DNA of 35,805 bases from Blastocatellia bacterium (GTDB lineage Bacteria; Acidobacteriota; Blastocatellia; UBA7656; JADIYM01): positions 1-35,805 of the forward strand of contig JAJTWZ010000045.1 in the NCBI GenBank assembly GCA_021463145.1, read 5' to 3'. The notes under the pieces were generated by a model. It was not told where the DNA came from, ran no database searches, and saw only the letters and a program-made list of their open reading frames with translations. The position numbers and the translations under genes are program-made. This document shows, piece by piece, positions 9,888 to 17,280 of the stretch (position 1 is its first letter; each line of letters begins with the position of its first letter).

Positions 9888-10433
9888 ATGTCAGTCGTTT
9901 CCGTAGAGTTTCGCAGTGACGTGAGCAATCAACTCCGCGGCCGCACGGTTGCCGGAACGGGTCACAGGCCGCAGAAGCTGCTCGGGTTCGGCGCTCGAGC
10001 CGACTCCATACTGCGCCGATTCACCCGGGCGCGGCTCGAGGCACTTCGACCGAAACGCGTGATCTCGGGAATGGCGCTCGGCTGGGACCAGGCCCTGGCG
10101 ACGGCCGCCGTCGATCTCGGAATTCCGTTTGTCGCGGCCGTGCCTTTCGAGGGTCAGGAGGCACGCTGGCCCGAGTCGTCGCAACGTGAACTAGCCGCTC
10201 TCATTGCCCGTGCGGCCAAGGTTGTCATCGTCAGCCCCGGATCGTTCTCGGGCCGGTCGATGCAAGCGCGCAACGAATGGATGGTCGAACGCTGCGATCT
10301 GCTCCTGGCCGTCTACGACGGATCCCCGAGCGGCCCCGGCAACTGCATCCGGTTTGCAGACGGGTGCGGCCGGGACATCCTCAACCTGTGGACTTCCTGG
10401 CAGGTCTTCGTTCGGGCACTCGCGTACGGATAG
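9888..10433 (+). CDS. SLOG-superfamily protein (DUF1273/YpsA-like)
   Basis: A 181-residue cytosolic Rossmann-like protein of the SLOG superfamily, whose members bind nucleotides or nucleotide-derived ligands. Visible motifs are 'VAGTGHRPQKLLGFG' (about residues 20-35), 'VISGMALGWDQALATAAVDL' (about 58-78), 'NEWMVERCDLLLAVYDGSP' (about 126-145) and 'GNCIRFA', the usual order for the DUF1273/YpsA-like branch. The usual final GGT before the Asn is here GPG, a small variation. The GGAGG at 9876-9880 fixes the ATG at 9888. The gene lies before a DUF4326 gene on the same strand; both families are common in phage and plasmid accessory DNA. Ligand and activity cannot be told from the sequence. Confidence 0.82.
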   Translation: MSVVSVEFRSDVSNQLRGRTVAGTGHRPQKLLGFGARADSILRRFTRARLEALRPKRVISGMALGWDQALATAAVDLGIPFVAAVPFEGQEARWPESSQRELAALIARAAKVVIVSPGSFSGRSMQARNEWMVERCDLLLAVYDGSPSGPGNCIRFADGCGRDILNLWTSWQVFVRALAYG

Positions 10434-10458
10434 CCCGGCCGTTCGCCATTGCCCGTCG

Positions 10459-10515
10459 CCTCCACTGCCGAGTCTGACGGACGCCTTCGCGACCCGTCTG
10501 ACTCTCCGGTGGAGG
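10459..10515 (+). promoter_or_regulatory. Long symmetric hairpin with the RBS of the DUF4326 gene in its 3' arm
   Basis: Three consecutive paired blocks: CCTCCAC (10459-10465) with GTGGAGG (10509-10515), GAGTC (10470-10474) with GACTC (10500-10504), and GACGG (10476-10480) with CCGTC (10494-10498). The internal loops are the same size on both sides (4 and 1 bases), and the apical loop is 13 bases. The GGAGG at 10511-10515, 10 bases before the ATG at 10526, is within the outer stem, so folding would hide the ribosome-binding site. This is a candidate translational switch. Confidence 0.65.
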
Positions 10516-10525
10516 TTCCAATCCA

Positions 10526-10816
10526 ATGTGGAAGGTCGGGAATAGACGCCGCGGCGATCGCGGCGAATACGTCGGGCGGCCGAGCCCGCTGGGCAACCCG
10601 TTCGCGATGCGCGACGAGAGCCAGCGCGACGCCGTCGTCGACGCTTACGCGCGGTGGCTCGAGGCGCGAATGCAGGAGAACGGCCCCGAGCGCGCCGAGA
10701 TCGAACGCCTTGCTGCGTCGCCTGACGGCACGCTCGTTTGCTGGTGCGCGCCGTTGCGCTGCCACGCCGACATCATCAGCGAATGGATCGAACGCGTCCG
10801 CGACGGACGCAAGTAA
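10526..10816 (+). CDS. DUF4326 domain protein
   Basis: A 96-residue protein that fits the DUF4326 family over its whole length: 'EYVGRPSPLGNPFAM' (about residues 14-28), a helical middle with 'DAYARWLEARM', and the end 'GTLVCWCAPLRCHADIISEW' with two Cys and a His in the conserved CWCAP.xCH arrangement, possibly a metal site. The family has no established activity. The start is set by GGAGG at 10511-10515, which is inside the hairpin described separately. It follows the SLOG gene by 92 bases and precedes a broken gene by 11 bases, so the three may have formed one operon. Confidence 0.85.
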   Translation: MWKVGNRRRGDRGEYVGRPSPLGNPFAMRDESQRDAVVDAYARWLEARMQENGPERAEIERLAASPDGTLVCWCAPLRCHADIISEWIERVRDGRK

Positions 10817-10827
10817 GGAGGAACGGA

Positions 10828-11292
10828 ATGTATCTCCGGCTTCGCGGTCGCGACGGCGATTCGACCGTCGTCATCTTGTACAATCGATGAATCCACGACT
10901 TCACGTTCGAGGTCACGTGGGACGCGCCGTCCACACGGCCCGTCTTCGAGTCGTTCGTCTCGTCGCCCGCGATGCTCTCGCGCGTCGCGTCGCCGTTCGT
11001 CGATATCGACGACGCTCTCTACGGCTACATCGTGGAGCTTTCGGGCTCACATCCCGGCTGGGGACGCGTCGTCGACCGTCCGGAGACCGTGACCCTTCGC
11101 GGCAGGCCGCGCAGCGTCCAGCAGTCGCTCTACGCGCGCGGCGGGGTGCTTCTCGCCGTCTCCGAACTGTACCCGGCTCGTCCCATCGAACTGACACGCT
11201 GGCTGCCCGGTCTCGGGCTCGGCCCGAACCAGGCCGCCCTTCGAACCGGAGGCCCCGCGCGAGGCGCGCTTCGCGCGCTGGGGTTCGTCTAG
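10828..11292 (+). pseudogene. Hypothetical gene interrupted by an in-frame TGA and cut by the transposon end
   Basis: A very strong ribosome-binding site (AAGGAGGAACGGA) precedes ATG 10828. Translation gives 20 residues ('MYLRLRGRDGDSTVVILYNR') and then TGA at 10888-10890. The same frame continues without another stop to 11292 with natural composition ('IHDFTFEVTWDAPSTRPVF', 'LYGYIVELSGSHPGWGRVV'). The last codons (GFV-stop) are supplied by the left inverted repeat of the Tn3-family element, so the original C-terminus is also lost or altered. No family recognised. A sequencing error at the TGA cannot be excluded; a shorter product from an internal start (ATG 10972) is possible but lacks a clear RBS. 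Confidence 0.6.
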
Positions 11293-11323
11293 CAACGGAG
11301 AAAAAAGCGACGCTGTGCGTATA
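11280..11323 (+). repeat. Left terminal inverted repeat of the Tn3-family element
   Basis: Starts with GGGGTT and continues through TAGCAACGGAG and a run of six A; compare the reverse complement of 17237-17280. There are three differences (two near positions 7-8, one near position 36). The first 38 bases correspond to the usual Tn3-family repeat length. Confidence 0.92.
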
Positions 11324-11647
11324 CGAATACTTATATCGGGGATACAATCGCCCGTTCAAGCCGGAACTCGATGAGGGGGGCCTCAGGGATCCTCTCTCGA
11401 AGCCAACGATCATCATGGGCGCCTGTCTCGAGTGTCAGCCTGAAGTAGTTGAAGATGCGCAGCGTCCGATGATCTGCCGCAGTCTCGGGGCCGAGGAGAC
11501 GGCCGACACCGTAACTCAACCGGCCTGGCGTCGCTGGAAGCAGTGAAACAAACGAGTTGCCTTGGCGTTGACCGTAACATAGAGTCCGAAAAGTGTGATC
11601 CAGCGTCGATCTCAATACGGTACAGCGAGTAGCACCGGAGCGAAGAA
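11324..11647. other. Transposon left subterminal region without a gene
   Basis: Just inside the left repeat lies CTTATATCGGGGAT (11330-11343), similar to CTTATACGCGGGGAT at 17046-17060 near the recombinase gene. The rest shows no open frame with a ribosome-binding site. A promoter for the cargo gene at 11648 must lie here; a TTGACC near 11573 could be a -35 box, but no good -10 follows at the right distance. Confidence 0.4.
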
Positions 11648-12382
11648 ATGAAAAAGTATCAGCTTACGTGGGCGCTCTGTCTCACCCTGCTTGTGAGTAG
11701 TGGCTTTGTCGTGTCCCATCCGACAACCGGCGTCGCCCAAGAACCGGATCAGGATGCTATTGCGCTGCAACAGCAAGCGTTGCCTATCGTTGAGTACGAT
11801 GCACCTGCCGTCTTCCCGACACCAGCGATACGGCAATCTCGAAGCGCAAAGTACAATGATCCGGACGGCGGCACGTTGGCCGAGGAATGGGAGAACGATA
11901 CCGGTTCGCGCCACACCAGCAGCGACATAATTGTAGGGTTAGCGGCTCTCCCGGTACGATCCAGCGACGCCATTGTAGTGGGCAGGGTTACTACTGCAGC
12001 CGCGTATCTGTCAGCTGACAAGAAAAACGTGTACTCGGAGTATCAAGTAACTGTAAGCCGCATTTTCAAGAATACAAGCCCCATCGCAATCCAGATCGGA
12101 GGGGACATCGCTGCCGAACGACCAATTGGCGCGGTCCGACTTCCGAAAGGAGACGTGGTCTACCACACGTGGGAGTACATGGGGGTTCCAAAGGTAAACA
12201 CAAAGTATGTCCTTTTTCTCAGAGCTGCTCCCGATGGAACGGATTTCATCCTTATCACAGGCTATGAAATCACCAATGGGGTTGTGACAGCGCTCGACGG
12301 CAACGGCCAATTCGGTGCCAAACGGTATCACGGCGTATCCGAGAGCATTCTGACCTCTGACCTCGACGTCGCAACAAAGTAG
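11648..12382 (+). CDS. Exported hypothetical protein, transposon cargo 1
   Basis: A 244-residue protein with a signal peptide (MKKYQ, hydrophobic residues 8-25, likely cleavage near 'GVAQEP'). No known family is recognised. The mature part has an acidic low-complexity start, then a probable beta-rich domain from about residue 95 ('SDAIVVGRVTTAAAYLSADK', 'VYSEYQVTVSRIFKN', 'NTKYVLFLRAAPDGTDFILI'); this pattern of a 'VGRV' strand, a 'YSEYQVTVSRIFK' strand and a late 'KYVLFL' strand is seen in small uncharacterised exported domains. GAGCGAAGA precedes the ATG. AT content and codon use are visibly higher in A/T than in the transposase genes, a sign that the cargo came from elsewhere. It sits 24 bases before the metalloprotease gene and is probably co-transcribed. 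Confidence 0.75.
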   Translation: MKKYQLTWALCLTLLVSSGFVVSHPTTGVAQEPDQDAIALQQQALPIVEYDAPAVFPTPAIRQSRSAKYNDPDGGTLAEEWENDTGSRHTSSDIIVGLAALPVRSSDAIVVGRVTTAAAYLSADKKNVYSEYQVTVSRIFKNTSPIAIQIGGDIAAERPIGAVRLPKGDVVYHTWEYMGVPKVNTKYVLFLRAAPDGTDFILITGYEITNGVVTALDGNGQFGAKRYHGVSESILTSDLDVATK

Positions 12383-12406
12383 CGCTCGAAAGTAGGTGAT
12401 ATTCTA

Positions 12407-13078
12407 ATGTTGAAGCACAATCGACCAATTCTCAATGCGCTGCTCTTAGCGGCTACCTTCGTCGTCCTGGCGTGGTATCCGAATGCGGTTCACGGCAGCG
12501 CTTGCAGTACTTGCCAGCCGCCAGTGCGAGCGAAAAAGTGGGCGTGGCGAGAGGCGGCGCGAATTAACACGTGCATTGACAGCAACTATTGGCAGAGCTT
12601 TAATCCTGCGTTCACATTGATCGGTGATGGGTTTCGATCGTGGATGAATCACAGCACGAATGGCAAGAATTGCTCGAACGTTGTTCATGACATCTCTTCG
12701 CAGAGTATAAACCCGAACAATAACAATTCGTATTGGGTGACATTTTGGACCGACGGACCAATGCCGGACCCTGACACGGGTTACATTACTTATGCCCATA
12801 CGGACTGGTTCCAGAATTCGGCCGGTACTGCCCTGAAGAAGGCGACCACCAAGCTCAATACTAGGTACTTCCCAAGCCCCATCCCCGGTGATTACTTCTA
12901 CCCGACTATGCTCCACGAAATCGGCCACACCTACGCACTCAGTGACTGTTACGACGATGCGGCGACGCCATGCACATCCATCTCGGTGATGAATCACATT
13001 GTCCTCGGAGTGTCGCCGACAGACGTGACGGCGAATGATGATTCATCGGTGAAACGGAATTACAGTTGTACGCAGTAG
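12407..13078 (+). CDS. Exported metzincin-like zinc metalloprotease, transposon cargo 2
   Basis: A 223-residue protein with a signal peptide (hydrophobic residues 10-24, cleavage near 'AVHGSA'). The zinc site 'MLHEIGHTYALSD' gives H170, E171, H174 and D180, the HExxHxxxxxD spacing known from snapalysin-type (M7) metzincins where Asp replaces the third His; the usual Gly before it is Ala-177. A downstream 'SISVMNHI' (Met-195) fits the Met-turn. Eight or so Cys residues suggest disulfides, consistent with an exported enzyme. The third ligand and the missing Gly make the assignment family-like rather than certain. A/T-richer codon use (runs such as four Asn codons in a row) separates it from neighbours. 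It is the second gene of the cargo pair and converges with tnpA. Confidence 0.78.
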   Translation: MLKHNRPILNALLLAATFVVLAWYPNAVHGSACSTCQPPVRAKKWAWREAARINTCIDSNYWQSFNPAFTLIGDGFRSWMNHSTNGKNCSNVVHDISSQSINPNNNNSYWVTFWTDGPMPDPDTGYITYAHTDWFQNSAGTALKKATTKLNTRYFPSPIPGDYFYPTMLHEIGHTYALSDCYDDAATPCTSISVMNHIVLGVSPTDVTANDDSSVKRNYSCTQ

Positions 13079-13180
13079 AGTCATTGAAGTCTAGCCAGTT
13101 TCGCCGCCCGGCCGTCGCCCGAAAGGACTACTGTGACGGTTATGTTCTTCGGGAGCCGACAGTGCTCGTTCGATACTGAA

Positions 13181-16150
13181 TCAGGTTACTTCCGGGTCGC
13201 GAAGCGGGCGCAACGTAGCTGGGTCCGGTGCCGCGTCGATGTCGAATCGGTACTTCCCGTAGGGGTTGATGTGCCCATACCTCGCGGGCGAGAGGTGCGC
13301 GACGTCGACATCGGCGATCGCGATGCCCTCGCGACGGAGTCTCGAGATCACTTCGTTCATGTAGACGGTGTTCCAGGTGACGATCGCATTGACGACGAGA
13401 TTGAGGCAGCTCGCCTGGTTCGCCTGCTCCTCCTGGTGACGGCGACGCACCTTGCCCTCGTTTGCGAAGAAGAGGTAGTTCCGCAGTGCGTGAAGGGCTT
13501 CGCCCTTGTTGATCTGCGTGCCGATCCGCCGACGGTAGTCCTCGCTGTCGATGTAGCGGAGAATGAAGATCGTCTTCACGAGACGACCGTATTCCTGCAG
13601 GGCTTTCGAGAGCGCGTTCTGACGCGGATAGGACTGGAGCTTTCCGACCAGCAGCGACGCCGTGACCCAGCCGAGCTTGAGCGATCCGGCGACCCGGAGC
13701 AGCTCGTCCCACATATCGAGGATGACGTCCTTGCGAATCGTGCCCTTCAGCAACGGTTCGAGGTGCAGGTAGCGGACGTCCCGACTCATCCGGTAGAGGC
13801 GCTGATCGCCGAGATCCCGTATGCGCGGTGAGAAGACGAGTCCGAGGAGATCGAAGAGTGCGAAGACGATCTCGGTGAACCCAGCGGTATCCGTCGCGTG
13901 CTCGAGAATCTCGAGCTCGGTTTCGTTGTCGAGGATCTCGTCAAGTACGTAGAGGGCGTCACGCGTCGTCGACGGGATGACCTTGGTGCCGTACTGGGAG
14001 AACTGGTCCGACGTCCAGGTGTAGAACGTCACGCCGCGGCCGTATCCGAAGTAGCGCGGAATTGCCGTCGCGTGGCGCGACTTTACCGACACGGGGAATC
14101 GCTGTCCGTCCGAAGACGAAAGGGTTCCGCCGCCCCAGATCCGTGCGAGCGGAAGGTGATGCTGGTAATTGACAACCTTGACCATCGCCGCCCGAAGCGT
14201 CTCCTCGCGGAGGTACCACGTTGTGCACCATCCGAGCCGGCCCAGGGCAAGGTCCGCGACCTTCGCCATCGTCACCGGTCCGAAATTGCAGGCCTGGGAA
14301 ATGATCGCAGCGAACAGGTACGTTCGAAGATCGCGTGTCCGCGGTTCGGAGCCGCCAGCATGTTCGAAGCACTGCGTGAAGTGCGTCCAGCCGTCGACTT
14401 CGATGAGCAGCTCGGACAGGTCGATCTGCGGCAACCGCTCGCTGACCAATTGCTCGAGTGCGACGACGTCCGGCGAGATATCCGCGGCGCGAAGTCGCGG
14501 TACGTGCAGAGAGCCGTCCTCGATGTCGAAACCGCCCTTCGGAAACTCGTGGTCGAGCCGGCCGAGCAGCCCCTCCAGTTCCTCACGGCGCATTGCAAGG
14601 CGTTCGCGCCCGTCAACGGGCAGGTCGAGCATCGTGGACGTTTCCGTGCGCAACTCGAGCCATTGGGACGAAGCGATAAGATAGCTCGCTGGATCGGCGT
14701 GCCTGCGGCTTCCATCGATCCAGACATCTCCCGAGCGAATGGCCGCCCGCAGTTCCCACAGCACGCACAGCTCGTAGAAGCGGCGAACGATTTTCCCGTT
14801 GCCGTCGAACAGGTGAGGCCACCACTTGGCGGTAATGAAGTCCATCGGCGCGTCATCGGGAACGCTCCGGAGCCCGGTCGCATTGAGGTTCCGAAGCACC
14901 CCGACTGCTTTGAGCAGCGCTGCCGCGGACTGGGCCGACCGGAAGTCGAGCGCGTCCAGGAACGCGGGCGCGAACGAGCGGAAGTAGGAGTACTTTGTCG
15001 CCAGCAGGTCGAAGTAGTGGTCGTCGAGCGGTCTTGCGATTCGGGCGCAGTCGTGAACTACTTCCTCGAGAGCATCGGGAGCGACGAGATCGAAGACACG
15101 TGGACGGACTTCGTCGTCCGCGATTGAGGGATCGAGCAGGATCGATCCGACTTCCTGAAGCAGCACGACCTTCTCGTTGGTTGATCTCGCGACCCTTTTC
15201 CGAATCAGTTCCAGCTCCTTTCCGGCCTCTCCGTACGAATGCGCGAGGCACCGGTCGTAGAGGTCGACGATCTCGTCGAGCACATCGATCCCTGTCTGCA
15301 CGGCGAAGGCCAGCAGTACCGGGTAACGGCGGACGGGAGACATCCGCTCGATCGCCTGCGCCGTGGACTTGCGCCCGATCTGCGCGAGGAACTTGATCCG
15401 ATTTGGCGGGATCGCGTCGAGGTCGAGTCCGGCGAAACCCTGTCCGGCGAGATACTCCCGCTTCGCGATCGCATCGAGAATCGATCCGCCGCTGTTGCGT
15501 GTGGCTCCCTGCCGGAGCCAGACGAGTGGAGTGCGGCCGAGCACGGTATCGTGGCGGAGCAGTCCGTCGAGCCTCTGCCGCCGCTCGTCCGCGAGCAGGG
15601 ATTCCAGTCTCGTGTATGTCTCCGACTGAGCGCGGTCGCGGGCGTGAGAGACCATCCGTTCGAGAATCGTGACTCCCGGGCGGAGGATCTTCGCGGCGAA
15701 GAGTCGCTCGCACACCAAACTGAGAAGCAGCGTCGGCTTGTCGTGTTCGAGCGCCCGGTCGAGGAGCCACCCCGAGAGTTCGCTCCAGTCGTTCGCAGTA
15801 GGCCTGCGCATTCCGAGATGTTCGAGAACGGCCCGTATCTGCAGGTGCCTCGTGCGATCACGAGCCCCATAGGACATCAGCATCTGCGGCGGAACCCGGA
15901 GTTGCCGCGCGACGTAGCCGACAACCGGCGACGGCACCGCGGAAAGGTCGACCGGCGCGAAGCCAAGGTACCGTATGGTGCAAAGCAGGAGCGCGAATCC
16001 GAGCCGGTTGTGATCGCCTGTCCGGCGCCGGACGAGATCGAGGTCGGCCGGCGACAGGGTAAAGTAGCCGGCAGTGTCCGAGTCCGAAACCGTGCCGGGA
16101 AATCGACGAAGCCGCTCCCGCTCGGCATCCGCGAGAAAGCCGATCGGCAC
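13181..16150 (-). CDS. tnpA: Tn3-family transposase TnpA
   Basis: Replicative DDE transposase that binds the terminal repeats and forms cointegrates; 989 residues is the usual size. The N-terminal DNA-binding region (about 1-170, DUF4158-like) is present. Catalytic residues can be placed by motif: D681 in 'SSSDGQRF', D754 in 'HATDTAGFTE' and E884 in 'INKGEALHAL', with the surrounding 'VFSPRIRDLGDQRLYR' typical of the family. No frameshift or stop is seen, so it is probably active. The start is GTG at 16150, 3 bases after the recombinase stop, with AGGTAGAAGG acting as RBS and overlapping that stop; the pair is translationally coupled. The 3' end converges with the metalloprotease gene. Confidence 0.96.
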   Translation of the reverse strand: MPIGFLADAERERLRRFPGTVSDSDTAGYFTLSPADLDLVRRRTGDHNRLGFALLLCTIRYLGFAPVDLSAVPSPVVGYVARQLRVPPQMLMSYGARDRTRHLQIRAVLEHLGMRRPTANDWSELSGWLLDRALEHDKPTLLLSLVCERLFAAKILRPGVTILERMVSHARDRAQSETYTRLESLLADERRQRLDGLLRHDTVLGRTPLVWLRQGATRNSGGSILDAIAKREYLAGQGFAGLDLDAIPPNRIKFLAQIGRKSTAQAIERMSPVRRYPVLLAFAVQTGIDVLDEIVDLYDRCLAHSYGEAGKELELIRKRVARSTNEKVVLLQEVGSILLDPSIADDEVRPRVFDLVAPDALEEVVHDCARIARPLDDHYFDLLATKYSYFRSFAPAFLDALDFRSAQSAAALLKAVGVLRNLNATGLRSVPDDAPMDFITAKWWPHLFDGNGKIVRRFYELCVLWELRAAIRSGDVWIDGSRRHADPASYLIASSQWLELRTETSTMLDLPVDGRERLAMRREELEGLLGRLDHEFPKGGFDIEDGSLHVPRLRAADISPDVVALEQLVSERLPQIDLSELLIEVDGWTHFTQCFEHAGGSEPRTRDLRTYLFAAIISQACNFGPVTMAKVADLALGRLGWCTTWYLREETLRAAMVKVVNYQHHLPLARIWGGGTLSSSDGQRFPVSVKSRHATAIPRYFGYGRGVTFYTWTSDQFSQYGTKVIPSTTRDALYVLDEILDNETELEILEHATDTAGFTEIVFALFDLLGLVFSPRIRDLGDQRLYRMSRDVRYLHLEPLLKGTIRKDVILDMWDELLRVAGSLKLGWVTASLLVGKLQSYPRQNALSKALQEYGRLVKTIFILRYIDSEDYRRRIGTQINKGEALHALRNYLFFANEGKVRRRHQEEQANQASCLNLVVNAIVTWNTVYMNEVISRLRREGIAIADVDVAHLSPARYGHINPYGKYRFDIDAAPDPATLRPLRDPEVT

Positions 16151-16153
16151 CTT

Positions 16154-17029
16154 CTACCTGTCCTCGCCGATGAGGGCGACGGCGCCTTCCAGGTCCTTCA
16201 TCGACGGCTCGCAGTAGCGTCTCGTCGTCTGCATGTTCTCGTGCCCGGCGAGCGCGGCCACCTTCTCGAGGCCGACGCCGGCGTTGACCAGGTTCTTGCA
16301 GAACGTGTGTCGTAGCGCGTGAGGCGTGATCTCGGCGTTGATCCCGGACGCATAGCGCTCCATCATGGACTGGACGCCTCTCGGCGTCAGTGGTCCTCGC
16401 TGTCCGTAGTAGACCGGCACTCGCTGGCCGGCGCAAAGCCGGAATCCGGCAGCCTCGAGCGCGTTGCGGGCGTCGAGATTGAGCGGCACCTCGCGCCGCT
16501 TGCGCCCCTTCCCACTTCGGACGACGAGCACGCCCTTGCGCTCTGTCATCGTCACGTCACTCCAGAGAAGACCGCACAGTTCGTGAACCCGCAGACCGGT
16601 GTTGAGCATGAGCTTGACGATGGACAGGTCACGATCGCTTCCGCCATTCTCGAGCGTCCGGAGCAACGCGTTCTGTTCCCGGCGATCGAGCCATCGCGGC
16701 CCCGGACGGGCTTCGCGCTCGAACCGCGGAACCTTGTGCGCGATTCCGTCAGCGACGAGTCCGGAGTCGGTCGCCCACTTCAGGAAGCTCTTGAGCGTCG
16801 CCAGCTTCCTGTTGATGCTCGCGGGCTTGAATCCGAGCCGGACGATCATCGCCTGCTTGTACTCCCGCAAATCGGTCGGCGTGACCCTAGATGGCTCGAA
16901 GGCCTCGCCGTTGGTTTCCTCGAACCAGGCGGCGAACGCCCGAAGGTCGCAACGGTAGTTGATGATCGTCAACGGACTCCGCTCCGCATGCTCCAGAAAG
17001 GTCAGGAACTCTTCGACGGAAGACGACAT
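16154..17029 (-). CDS. Tyrosine recombinase (TnpI-like, XerC/D family)
   Basis: A 291-residue site-specific recombinase, probably the cointegrate resolution enzyme of the transposon. The N-terminal SAM-like core-binding domain covers about 1-90. Catalytic residues are visible: R147 in 'NTGLRVHEL', a Lys near 174 in 'SGKGRKRREV', H237 and R240 in 'HALRHTF', H263 in 'LAGHENMQTTRRY' and the nucleophile Y272. The start is ATG 17029 with GGAGG about 5 bases upstream; the frame stays open farther up to 17188, but that part crosses the repeat-rich candidate recombination site and has no RBS. It is upstream of, and coupled to, tnpA. Confidence 0.93.
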   Translation of the reverse strand: MSSSVEEFLTFLEHAERSPLTIINYRCDLRAFAAWFEETNGEAFEPSRVTPTDLREYKQAMIVRLGFKPASINRKLATLKSFLKWATDSGLVADGIAHKVPRFEREARPGPRWLDRREQNALLRTLENGGSDRDLSIVKLMLNTGLRVHELCGLLWSDVTMTERKGVLVVRSGKGRKRREVPLNLDARNALEAAGFRLCAGQRVPVYYGQRGPLTPRGVQSMMERYASGINAEITPHALRHTFCKNLVNAGVGLEKVAALAGHENMQTTRRYCEPSMKDLEGAVALIGEDR

Positions 17030-17040
17030 CCGACACCTCC

Positions 17041-17250
17041 AGACTCTTATACGCGGGGATTCTCGTGGGATAAGAAGCTGTCGGAAGTGACTTATATGAC
17101 GAGTCAGAGTCAGAGTCAACGGTGAAGGGTATTTATACGCGCAGATTGCCCATGGACGTGCGGGAGCCTCGAGTCGGAGACGAGCCACTTGAGTTTCGGA
17201 GCAATCTGCAAGGTCGCCTCAGCCGGAAAGCACGCTTATACGCGCAGCGT
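17041..17250. other. Candidate resolution/recombination site of the transposon
   Basis: Between the recombinase start and the right end lie repeated motifs: CTTATACGCGGGGAT (17046-17060), CTTATATGAC (17091-17100), TTTATACGCGCAG (17132-17144) and CTTATACGCGCAG (17235-17247, inside the right repeat). GAGTCA occurs three times in tandem at 17101-17118. Placement beside tnpI and repetition fit a TnpI internal resolution site, but the core crossover site is not defined. The same motifs may also serve as the tnpI-tnpA promoter/operator. Confidence 0.5.
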
Positions 17251-17280
17251 CGCTTTTTTCTCCGTTGCTAGATCAACCCC
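17237..17280 (-). repeat. Right terminal inverted repeat of the Tn3-family element
   Basis: Read on the minus strand from 17280 it begins GGGGTT and matches the left repeat at 41 of 44 positions. It includes the TTTTTTCTCCGTTGCTA core on the plus strand. Confidence 0.92.

Follow-up and report, generated by a model that had tools for sequence, protein, structure and literature searches.

A TnpI-type Tn3-family transposon from Blastocatellia carrying genes for a predicted metzincin-like protease and an exported protein of predicted NTR/TIMP fold

Introduction

Among 190 Tn3 elements covered by a survey published in 2020, TnpI was carried by Tn5401, TnBth4 and Tn4430 only (PMC7157771). Tn5401 and Tn4430, both from Bacillus thuringiensis, have a common layout in which tnpI and then tnpA are read in one direction, the resolution site lies upstream of tnpI, and long inverted repeats starting with GGGG close the element; for Tn5401, a TnpI site near each end has also been described (PMC7157771). 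The two differ in cargo, as Tn4430 has none while Tn5401 carries ParE-ParD beside the resolution site.

In Listeria monocytogenes, the secreted metzincin Mtz and the TIMP-like protein Tim are encoded by side-by-side genes (LMRG_00713-00714) that are linked to mobile elements (PMC8235301). Mtz shortens Tim by about 50 residues at the N-terminus, and sensitisation of Listeria cells to wall-targeting agents requires the two proteins together; the pair was described in 2021 by authors who found no previous bacterial record (PMC8235301). In the stretches of the Listeria phages A500, PSA and A118 that were read, mtz-tim was not present. To our knowledge, it is mainly in animals that metzincins have known TIMP-like partners, such pairs being barely known in bacteria. 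The NTR/TIMP fold is that of the animal inhibitors of metzincins, in which the N-terminal Cys of TIMP, being free, chelates the protease zinc.

We describe here a Tn3-family element with the layout of Tn5401 and Tn4430 whose host, in contrast to theirs, is a Blastocatellia chromosome, and whose cargo, placed at the tnpA end, consists of genes for a predicted NTR-fold protein and a predicted metzincin. In its described features, predicted fold and gene adjacency this pair is similar to Mtz-Tim: in association with a mobile element, a gene for an exported metzincin (HEXXHXXGXXH/D and Met-turn) adjoins one whose product is also exported and has a predicted fold like that of TIMP. It differs from the Listeria pair in that the gene for the TIMP-like protein comes first, no lipobox was seen, no XRE switch lies alongside and a Tn3 transposon serves as carrier. 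The pair is a new variant of this barely studied bacterial metzincin/TIMP-like combination, on a new TnpI-type Tn3 element.

Results

The DNA analysed (the window, 35,805 nucleotides) is one entire contig, C114, of a 5.28-Mb Blastocatellia genome. It includes a Tn3-family element at 11280-17280, 6,001 bp end to end, which contains tnpI, tnpA and two cargo genes on the opposite strand. The features of the element are as follows.

11280..11324, plus strand: left terminal inverted repeat, 45 bp, starting with GGGG; similarity continues to 11332
11317-11324: GCGTATAC, a variant of the TnpI motif, at the inner end of the left repeat
11648..12382, plus strand: cargo 1, exported protein; core (residues about 92-244) with a predicted NTR/TIMP-like OB fold, preceded by a conserved N-terminal extension
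12407..13078, plus strand: cargo 2, exported, predicted metzincin-like zinc protease; HEIGHTYALSD ... SVMNH
13181..16150, minus strand: tnpA, intact Tn3-family transposase, Tn4430-like
16154..17029, minus strand: tnpI, tyrosine recombinase (cointegrate resolvase)
17030..17235, no strand assigned: putative internal resolution site (irs); minus-strand GCGTATAA motifs lie at 17047-17054 and 17133-17140
17236-17243: third GCGTATAA motif, forming the innermost part of the right repeat
17236..17280, minus strand: right terminal inverted repeat, 45 bp; similarity extends inward to 17228

The anatomy of the transposon is evident from its ends and from its two recombination genes. The best inverted pair of the region is 11280-11332/17228-17280 (53 nt, 87% complementary), and the outer 44 bp of the two repeats are 93% identical. 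Repeats of this group match each other, are at least 38 bp long and start with GGGG, and those of the window element have all three properties. No 5-bp target duplication is present at the flanks, which read GCGCT on the left and TGATT on the right, indicating that the insertion is old or has been rearranged. Such a duplication marks a fresh, unrearranged insertion and is erased by later rearrangement; the Tn3 family is not defined by it, and its absence does not exclude the element from that family. Just to the left of the element (window positions 9888-10816) lie a gene for a SLOG-family protein and then a DUF4326 gene. Promoter and terminator scans gave signals at or below background.

TnpA matched the Pfam DDE_Tnp_Tn3 profile (PF01526) at 1.4e-144, with the whole profile covered. 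Its closest solved relative is the TnpA of Tn4430, to which it aligned nearly end to end (residues 5-985, E about 1e-187), and the catalytic residues, Asp in SSSDG, Asp in DTAG and Glu in NKGEA, are in register in this alignment. The best plasmid relative was a Rubrobacter transposase, 49.6% identical. As judged by alignment to a homologue in another Blastocatellia genome (G123), the likely start of tnpI is the ATG at 17029 and not the GTG at 17188 given in the open reading frame list. The protein matched the Pfam phage integrase family (2.9e-32), and the residues R, K, HxxR, H and Y are all present. The gene lies upstream of tnpA and is co-directional with it, an order that is identical in the G123 element. 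The element belongs to the TnpI-type Tn3 group of Tn4430 and Tn5401, on which the families of TnpA and TnpI and the repeats agree. A preliminary description of this DNA had already named a Tn4430/Tn5401-type Tn3 element with a TnpI-type recombinase, bounded by GGGG-starting inverted repeats and encoding an intact TnpA with catalytic D, D and E as well as a tyrosine recombinase with complete catalytic residues, and each of these points was borne out.

The motif GCGTATAA occurs exactly three times in the window, against 0.15 occurrences expected in 35.8 kb; two copies lie upstream of tnpI and one in the right repeat. The layout is repeated in G123, where the motif is likewise found at the repeats and upstream of tnpI. 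Candidate TnpI-site-like motifs lie in each of the two repeats as well as upstream of tnpI, the arrangement described for Tn5401. In G123 the motif upstream of tnpI falls within a palindrome with 14-bp arms (13 positions matching) and a 7-bp centre, whereas a search of the window for such an irs core palindrome did not find one.

The G123 element, on contig C39 (L074), encodes a TnpA 52% and a TnpI 57% identical to those of the window. Its 45-bp repeats follow the same plan and have the core AAGCGACGCTGCGCGTATAA in common with the right repeat of the window; as it holds tnpI and tnpA alone, it represents this kind of element in its cargo-free form. Remnants were also found in the genome from which the window comes, namely three lone decayed repeats (C124:5978-6022, C116:30132-30173 and C92:40918-40970), for which no partner repeats were found nearby, and a tnpI fragment (C100:11463-11609). 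These suggest that the element was probably active there earlier. When 396 genomes of the phylum were searched with the repeat core, notable matches came from this genome alone, and two further matches were no better than expected by chance or than those of the reversed control. The relatives searched, all of them from other families, yielded no empty site.

Other Tn3-family transposase genes, cut at contig ends, were seen in the same genome on C62, C101, C113 and C124 (L079, L080, L081 and L034); their products are about 22-33% identical to the window TnpA. On C124, a distant cargo-1 homologue without an adjoining protease stands beside another Tn3 transposase. It was considered as a second copy of the cargo and rejected, since the stretch common to C124 and C101 stops before the gene, which therefore most likely lies just outside that element.

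The cargo had been described as two A/T-richer genes for exported proteins on the opposite strand, a metzincin-like gene and its partner forming the sole cargo of the element. The contents of the repeat-bounded 6,001 bp agree with this, as do the GC contents of 0.54 (cargo 1) and 0.52 (cargo 2) versus 0.63 for tnpA. The term metalloprotease pair holds for one half only: cargo 2 is predicted to be metzincin-like, while its partner is not a protease and has instead a core of predicted NTR/TIMP fold.

The predicted fold class of the cargo 1 core is clear. An AlphaFold model made with 16 sequences had a mean pLDDT of 81 (mostly 85-98 in the core), and its best 50 structural matches were all NTR-type folds or chains containing one. 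These included agrin NtA (Z 10.7), the NTR domain of PCOLCE (10.6) and complement C345C domains, as well as N-TIMP-3 bound to TACE (Z 9.9) and TIMP-1 bound to MT1-MMP (Z 9.5). The match to the TIMPs starts at cargo-1 residue 92, equivalent to TIMP residue 1, which leaves a conserved extension of ~60 residues between the export signal and the fold. No Pfam family was found for cargo 1, and the Pfam TIMP (PF00965) and NTR (PF01759) profiles stayed below cut-off, in the genomes searched as well. The TIMP-type N-terminal Cys is absent, the sole Cys of the protein lying in the signal sequence. Cargo 1 thus resembles animal TIMP/NTR proteins in its predicted core fold (Z about 9.5-10.7) and in its pairing with a metzincin, and differs from them in having neither a Pfam TIMP/NTR match nor the N-terminal Cys and in the 90-residue N-terminal part that precedes the fold. 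The predicted fold is one that is common to TIMPs, and membership of the TIMP family is not borne out by sequence; an OB/NTR fold is by itself no proof of inhibition.

Cargo 2 is predicted to be metzincin-like from its motifs and from weak profile matches. HEIGHTYALSDC and the Met-turn SVMNH together make up a metzincin signature with Asp as the third zinc ligand; HEIGHTYALSD ends on this Asp and has Ala in place of the Gly that most metzincins have at that position of the HExxHxxG motif. The matches to the M7, M10, M12B and M54 models were weak and lay at the zinc site, no Pfam family reached its cut-off, and the AlphaFold model was poor (pLDDT 54). Cargo 2 shares with snapalysin (M7), matrixin (M10), reprolysin (M12B) and archaemetzincin (M54) the HExxH motif, a third ligand position of Asp, His or Asn and a downstream Met-turn, but differs from these families in staying below the Pfam cut-offs and in the change of the motif Gly to Ala. 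Snapalysin likewise has Asp as its third ligand. NCBIfam and PHROGs family scans gave nothing usable for either cargo protein.

Neither a recognisable propeptide nor the C-terminal FrpC-SPM-like domain carried by most chromosomal homologues is present in cargo 2. In the chromosomal proteases of L084, L086, L088, L093, L094 and L095, this C-terminal domain matches the FrpC self-processing module (6sjw, E 7.7e-33), which is a calcium-dependent clip-and-link domain. When the proteases of L010-L033 and L083-L095 were read by eye, Asn occupied the third position of HExxHxxGxxX in roughly half of them and Asp or His in the rest; Asn being an unusual ligand, this may mean an altered or lost activity in those copies.

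Homologues of cargo 1 were found in 36 of 147 relatives by single-sequence search and in 42 of 162 Blastocatellia genomes by profile search. The pairing of the two genes is likewise evident. The protease follows directly downstream on the same strand in 30 of the 41 strong cargo-1 homologues in Blastocatellia, and cargo 1 lies upstream in all of the best 21 protease matches, a count that is partly circular because the protease alignment was built from members of the pair. At three loci (L085, L087 and L092) cargo 1 is not followed by an intact HExxH protease, and L092 has an SPM-like protein alone. Cargo 1 and cargo 2 are a conserved, otherwise chromosomal two-gene unit in Blastocatellia.

A search of 21 homologue loci with flanks, among which some genomes are present twice, found neither a TnpA or TnpI of this kind nor such an inverted repeat in the vicinity of the pair. 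In a tree of 26 sequences, the cargo 1 of the transposon is nested among the chromosomal homologues and its branch exceeds all others in length, and the cargo proteins are less than 40% identical to any relative found. No relatives of the cargo were found in plasmids, and none of cargo 2 in the phage collection. The absence of a transposon from the homologue loci, together with the placement in the tree, points to the capture of a chromosomal unit, and the transposon copy looks like a single such event. The earlier suggestion that the pair is an established transposon cargo was not upheld: the pair is widespread outside the repeats, one copy was found between matching ends, and the related G123:C39 element is without cargo.

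Discussion

On balance we favour the view that the locus is a TnpI-type Tn3 element with a captured chromosomal pair, whose protease and cognate NTR partner work as in Mtz-Tim. TnpA would act on the GGGG-starting repeats in replicative transposition, and TnpI would resolve the cointegrate at the site just upstream of its gene, its putative binding motif also lying within each terminal repeat. The chromosomal two-gene unit would have been captured between the tnpA end and the left repeat. Once exported, the protease and its cognate partner would work outside the cytoplasm, as Mtz and Tim do; cargo 1 would bind cargo 2, and trimming of its N-terminal extension by the protease would leave the NTR domain freed and/or able to cap the active site. 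By analogy with Mtz-Tim, the most likely principle would be that cargo 2 acts upon its NTR partner, which may in turn restrain it. Physical interaction, cleavage and inhibition are inferred, as would be any benefit to the host. A more specific form of the proposal, which we put forward tentatively, is that the metzincin and the TIMP-fold protein make up a self-contained extracellular protease-regulator module, conserved in the class and mobilised by Tn3, and that the NTR protein would regulate its protease by a mechanism unlike that of animal TIMPs, once its extension had been trimmed by that same protease.

The structural matches of cargo 1 can also be read in another way. The best of them include the non-inhibitory NTR domains of agrin (NtA) and complement (C345C), and NTR domains of agrin and complement bind other proteins; the TIMP-type N-terminal Cys is absent, and three loci keep cargo 1 with no intact HExxH protease after it. 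Cargo 1 might therefore be a substrate-docking or surface-targeting partner, directing the metzincin to a target in the envelope or matrix, and not a regulator. We consider this unlikely, as the metzincin itself is the most constant neighbour of cargo 1 and as, in the one analogue put to the test, the TIMP-like protein is the target of the protease (PMC8235301). Somewhat less likely still is a reading of the cargo as a passenger in decay: a chromosomal pair, truncated in that it is without the SPM-like domain, that was picked up by chance and has lost its function. Cargo 2 is half as long as most of its chromosomal homologues and a near-invariant Cys is missing, cargo 1 has the longest branch of all in the tree, and the element is without a target duplication. 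However, both frames are open, and the export signals, HExxH, Met-turn and NTR core have been retained despite identities to relatives of less than 40%; some other proteases of the family are similarly short, with open frames of 227-273 aa.

An additional scenario, to which we give the least credence, is an envelope-acting conflict or maintenance module, in which the protease would be harmful outside the producer, the NTR protein would protect, and loss of the element would be costly. The two-gene unit, with the putative protector first, is consistent with it, and so are the toxin-antitoxin pair of Tn5401, itself a TnpI-type Tn3 (PMC7157771), and the observation that the Listeria pair sensitises cells, neighbouring ones included, to lysis (PMC8235301). 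Yet the pair is mostly chromosomal and, at the homologue loci examined in the class, was not seen with such elements; moreover, the cargo sits at the tnpA end, whereas most toxin-antitoxin pairs of Tn3 elements lie upstream of the resolvase (PMC7157771).

If the reading modelled on Mtz-Tim is correct, the conserved set in this soil class of the Acidobacteriota would show the metzincin/TIMP-like pairing to be widespread, and the two small exported proteins would offer a compact test system for the control of a metzincin by an NTR domain. The element also adds to the TnpI-type Tn3 elements, of which the 2020 survey had three among 190, and carries a kind of cargo that we have not found described for Tn3 elements.

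A recombinase 49% identical to the window TnpI was also noticed on the Caedibacter plasmid pKAP298 (NC_005915, L106), where it adjoins a Tn3 transposase annotated in two pieces. This arrangement suggests that the survey's count of three may understate how common TnpI-type Tn3 elements are.
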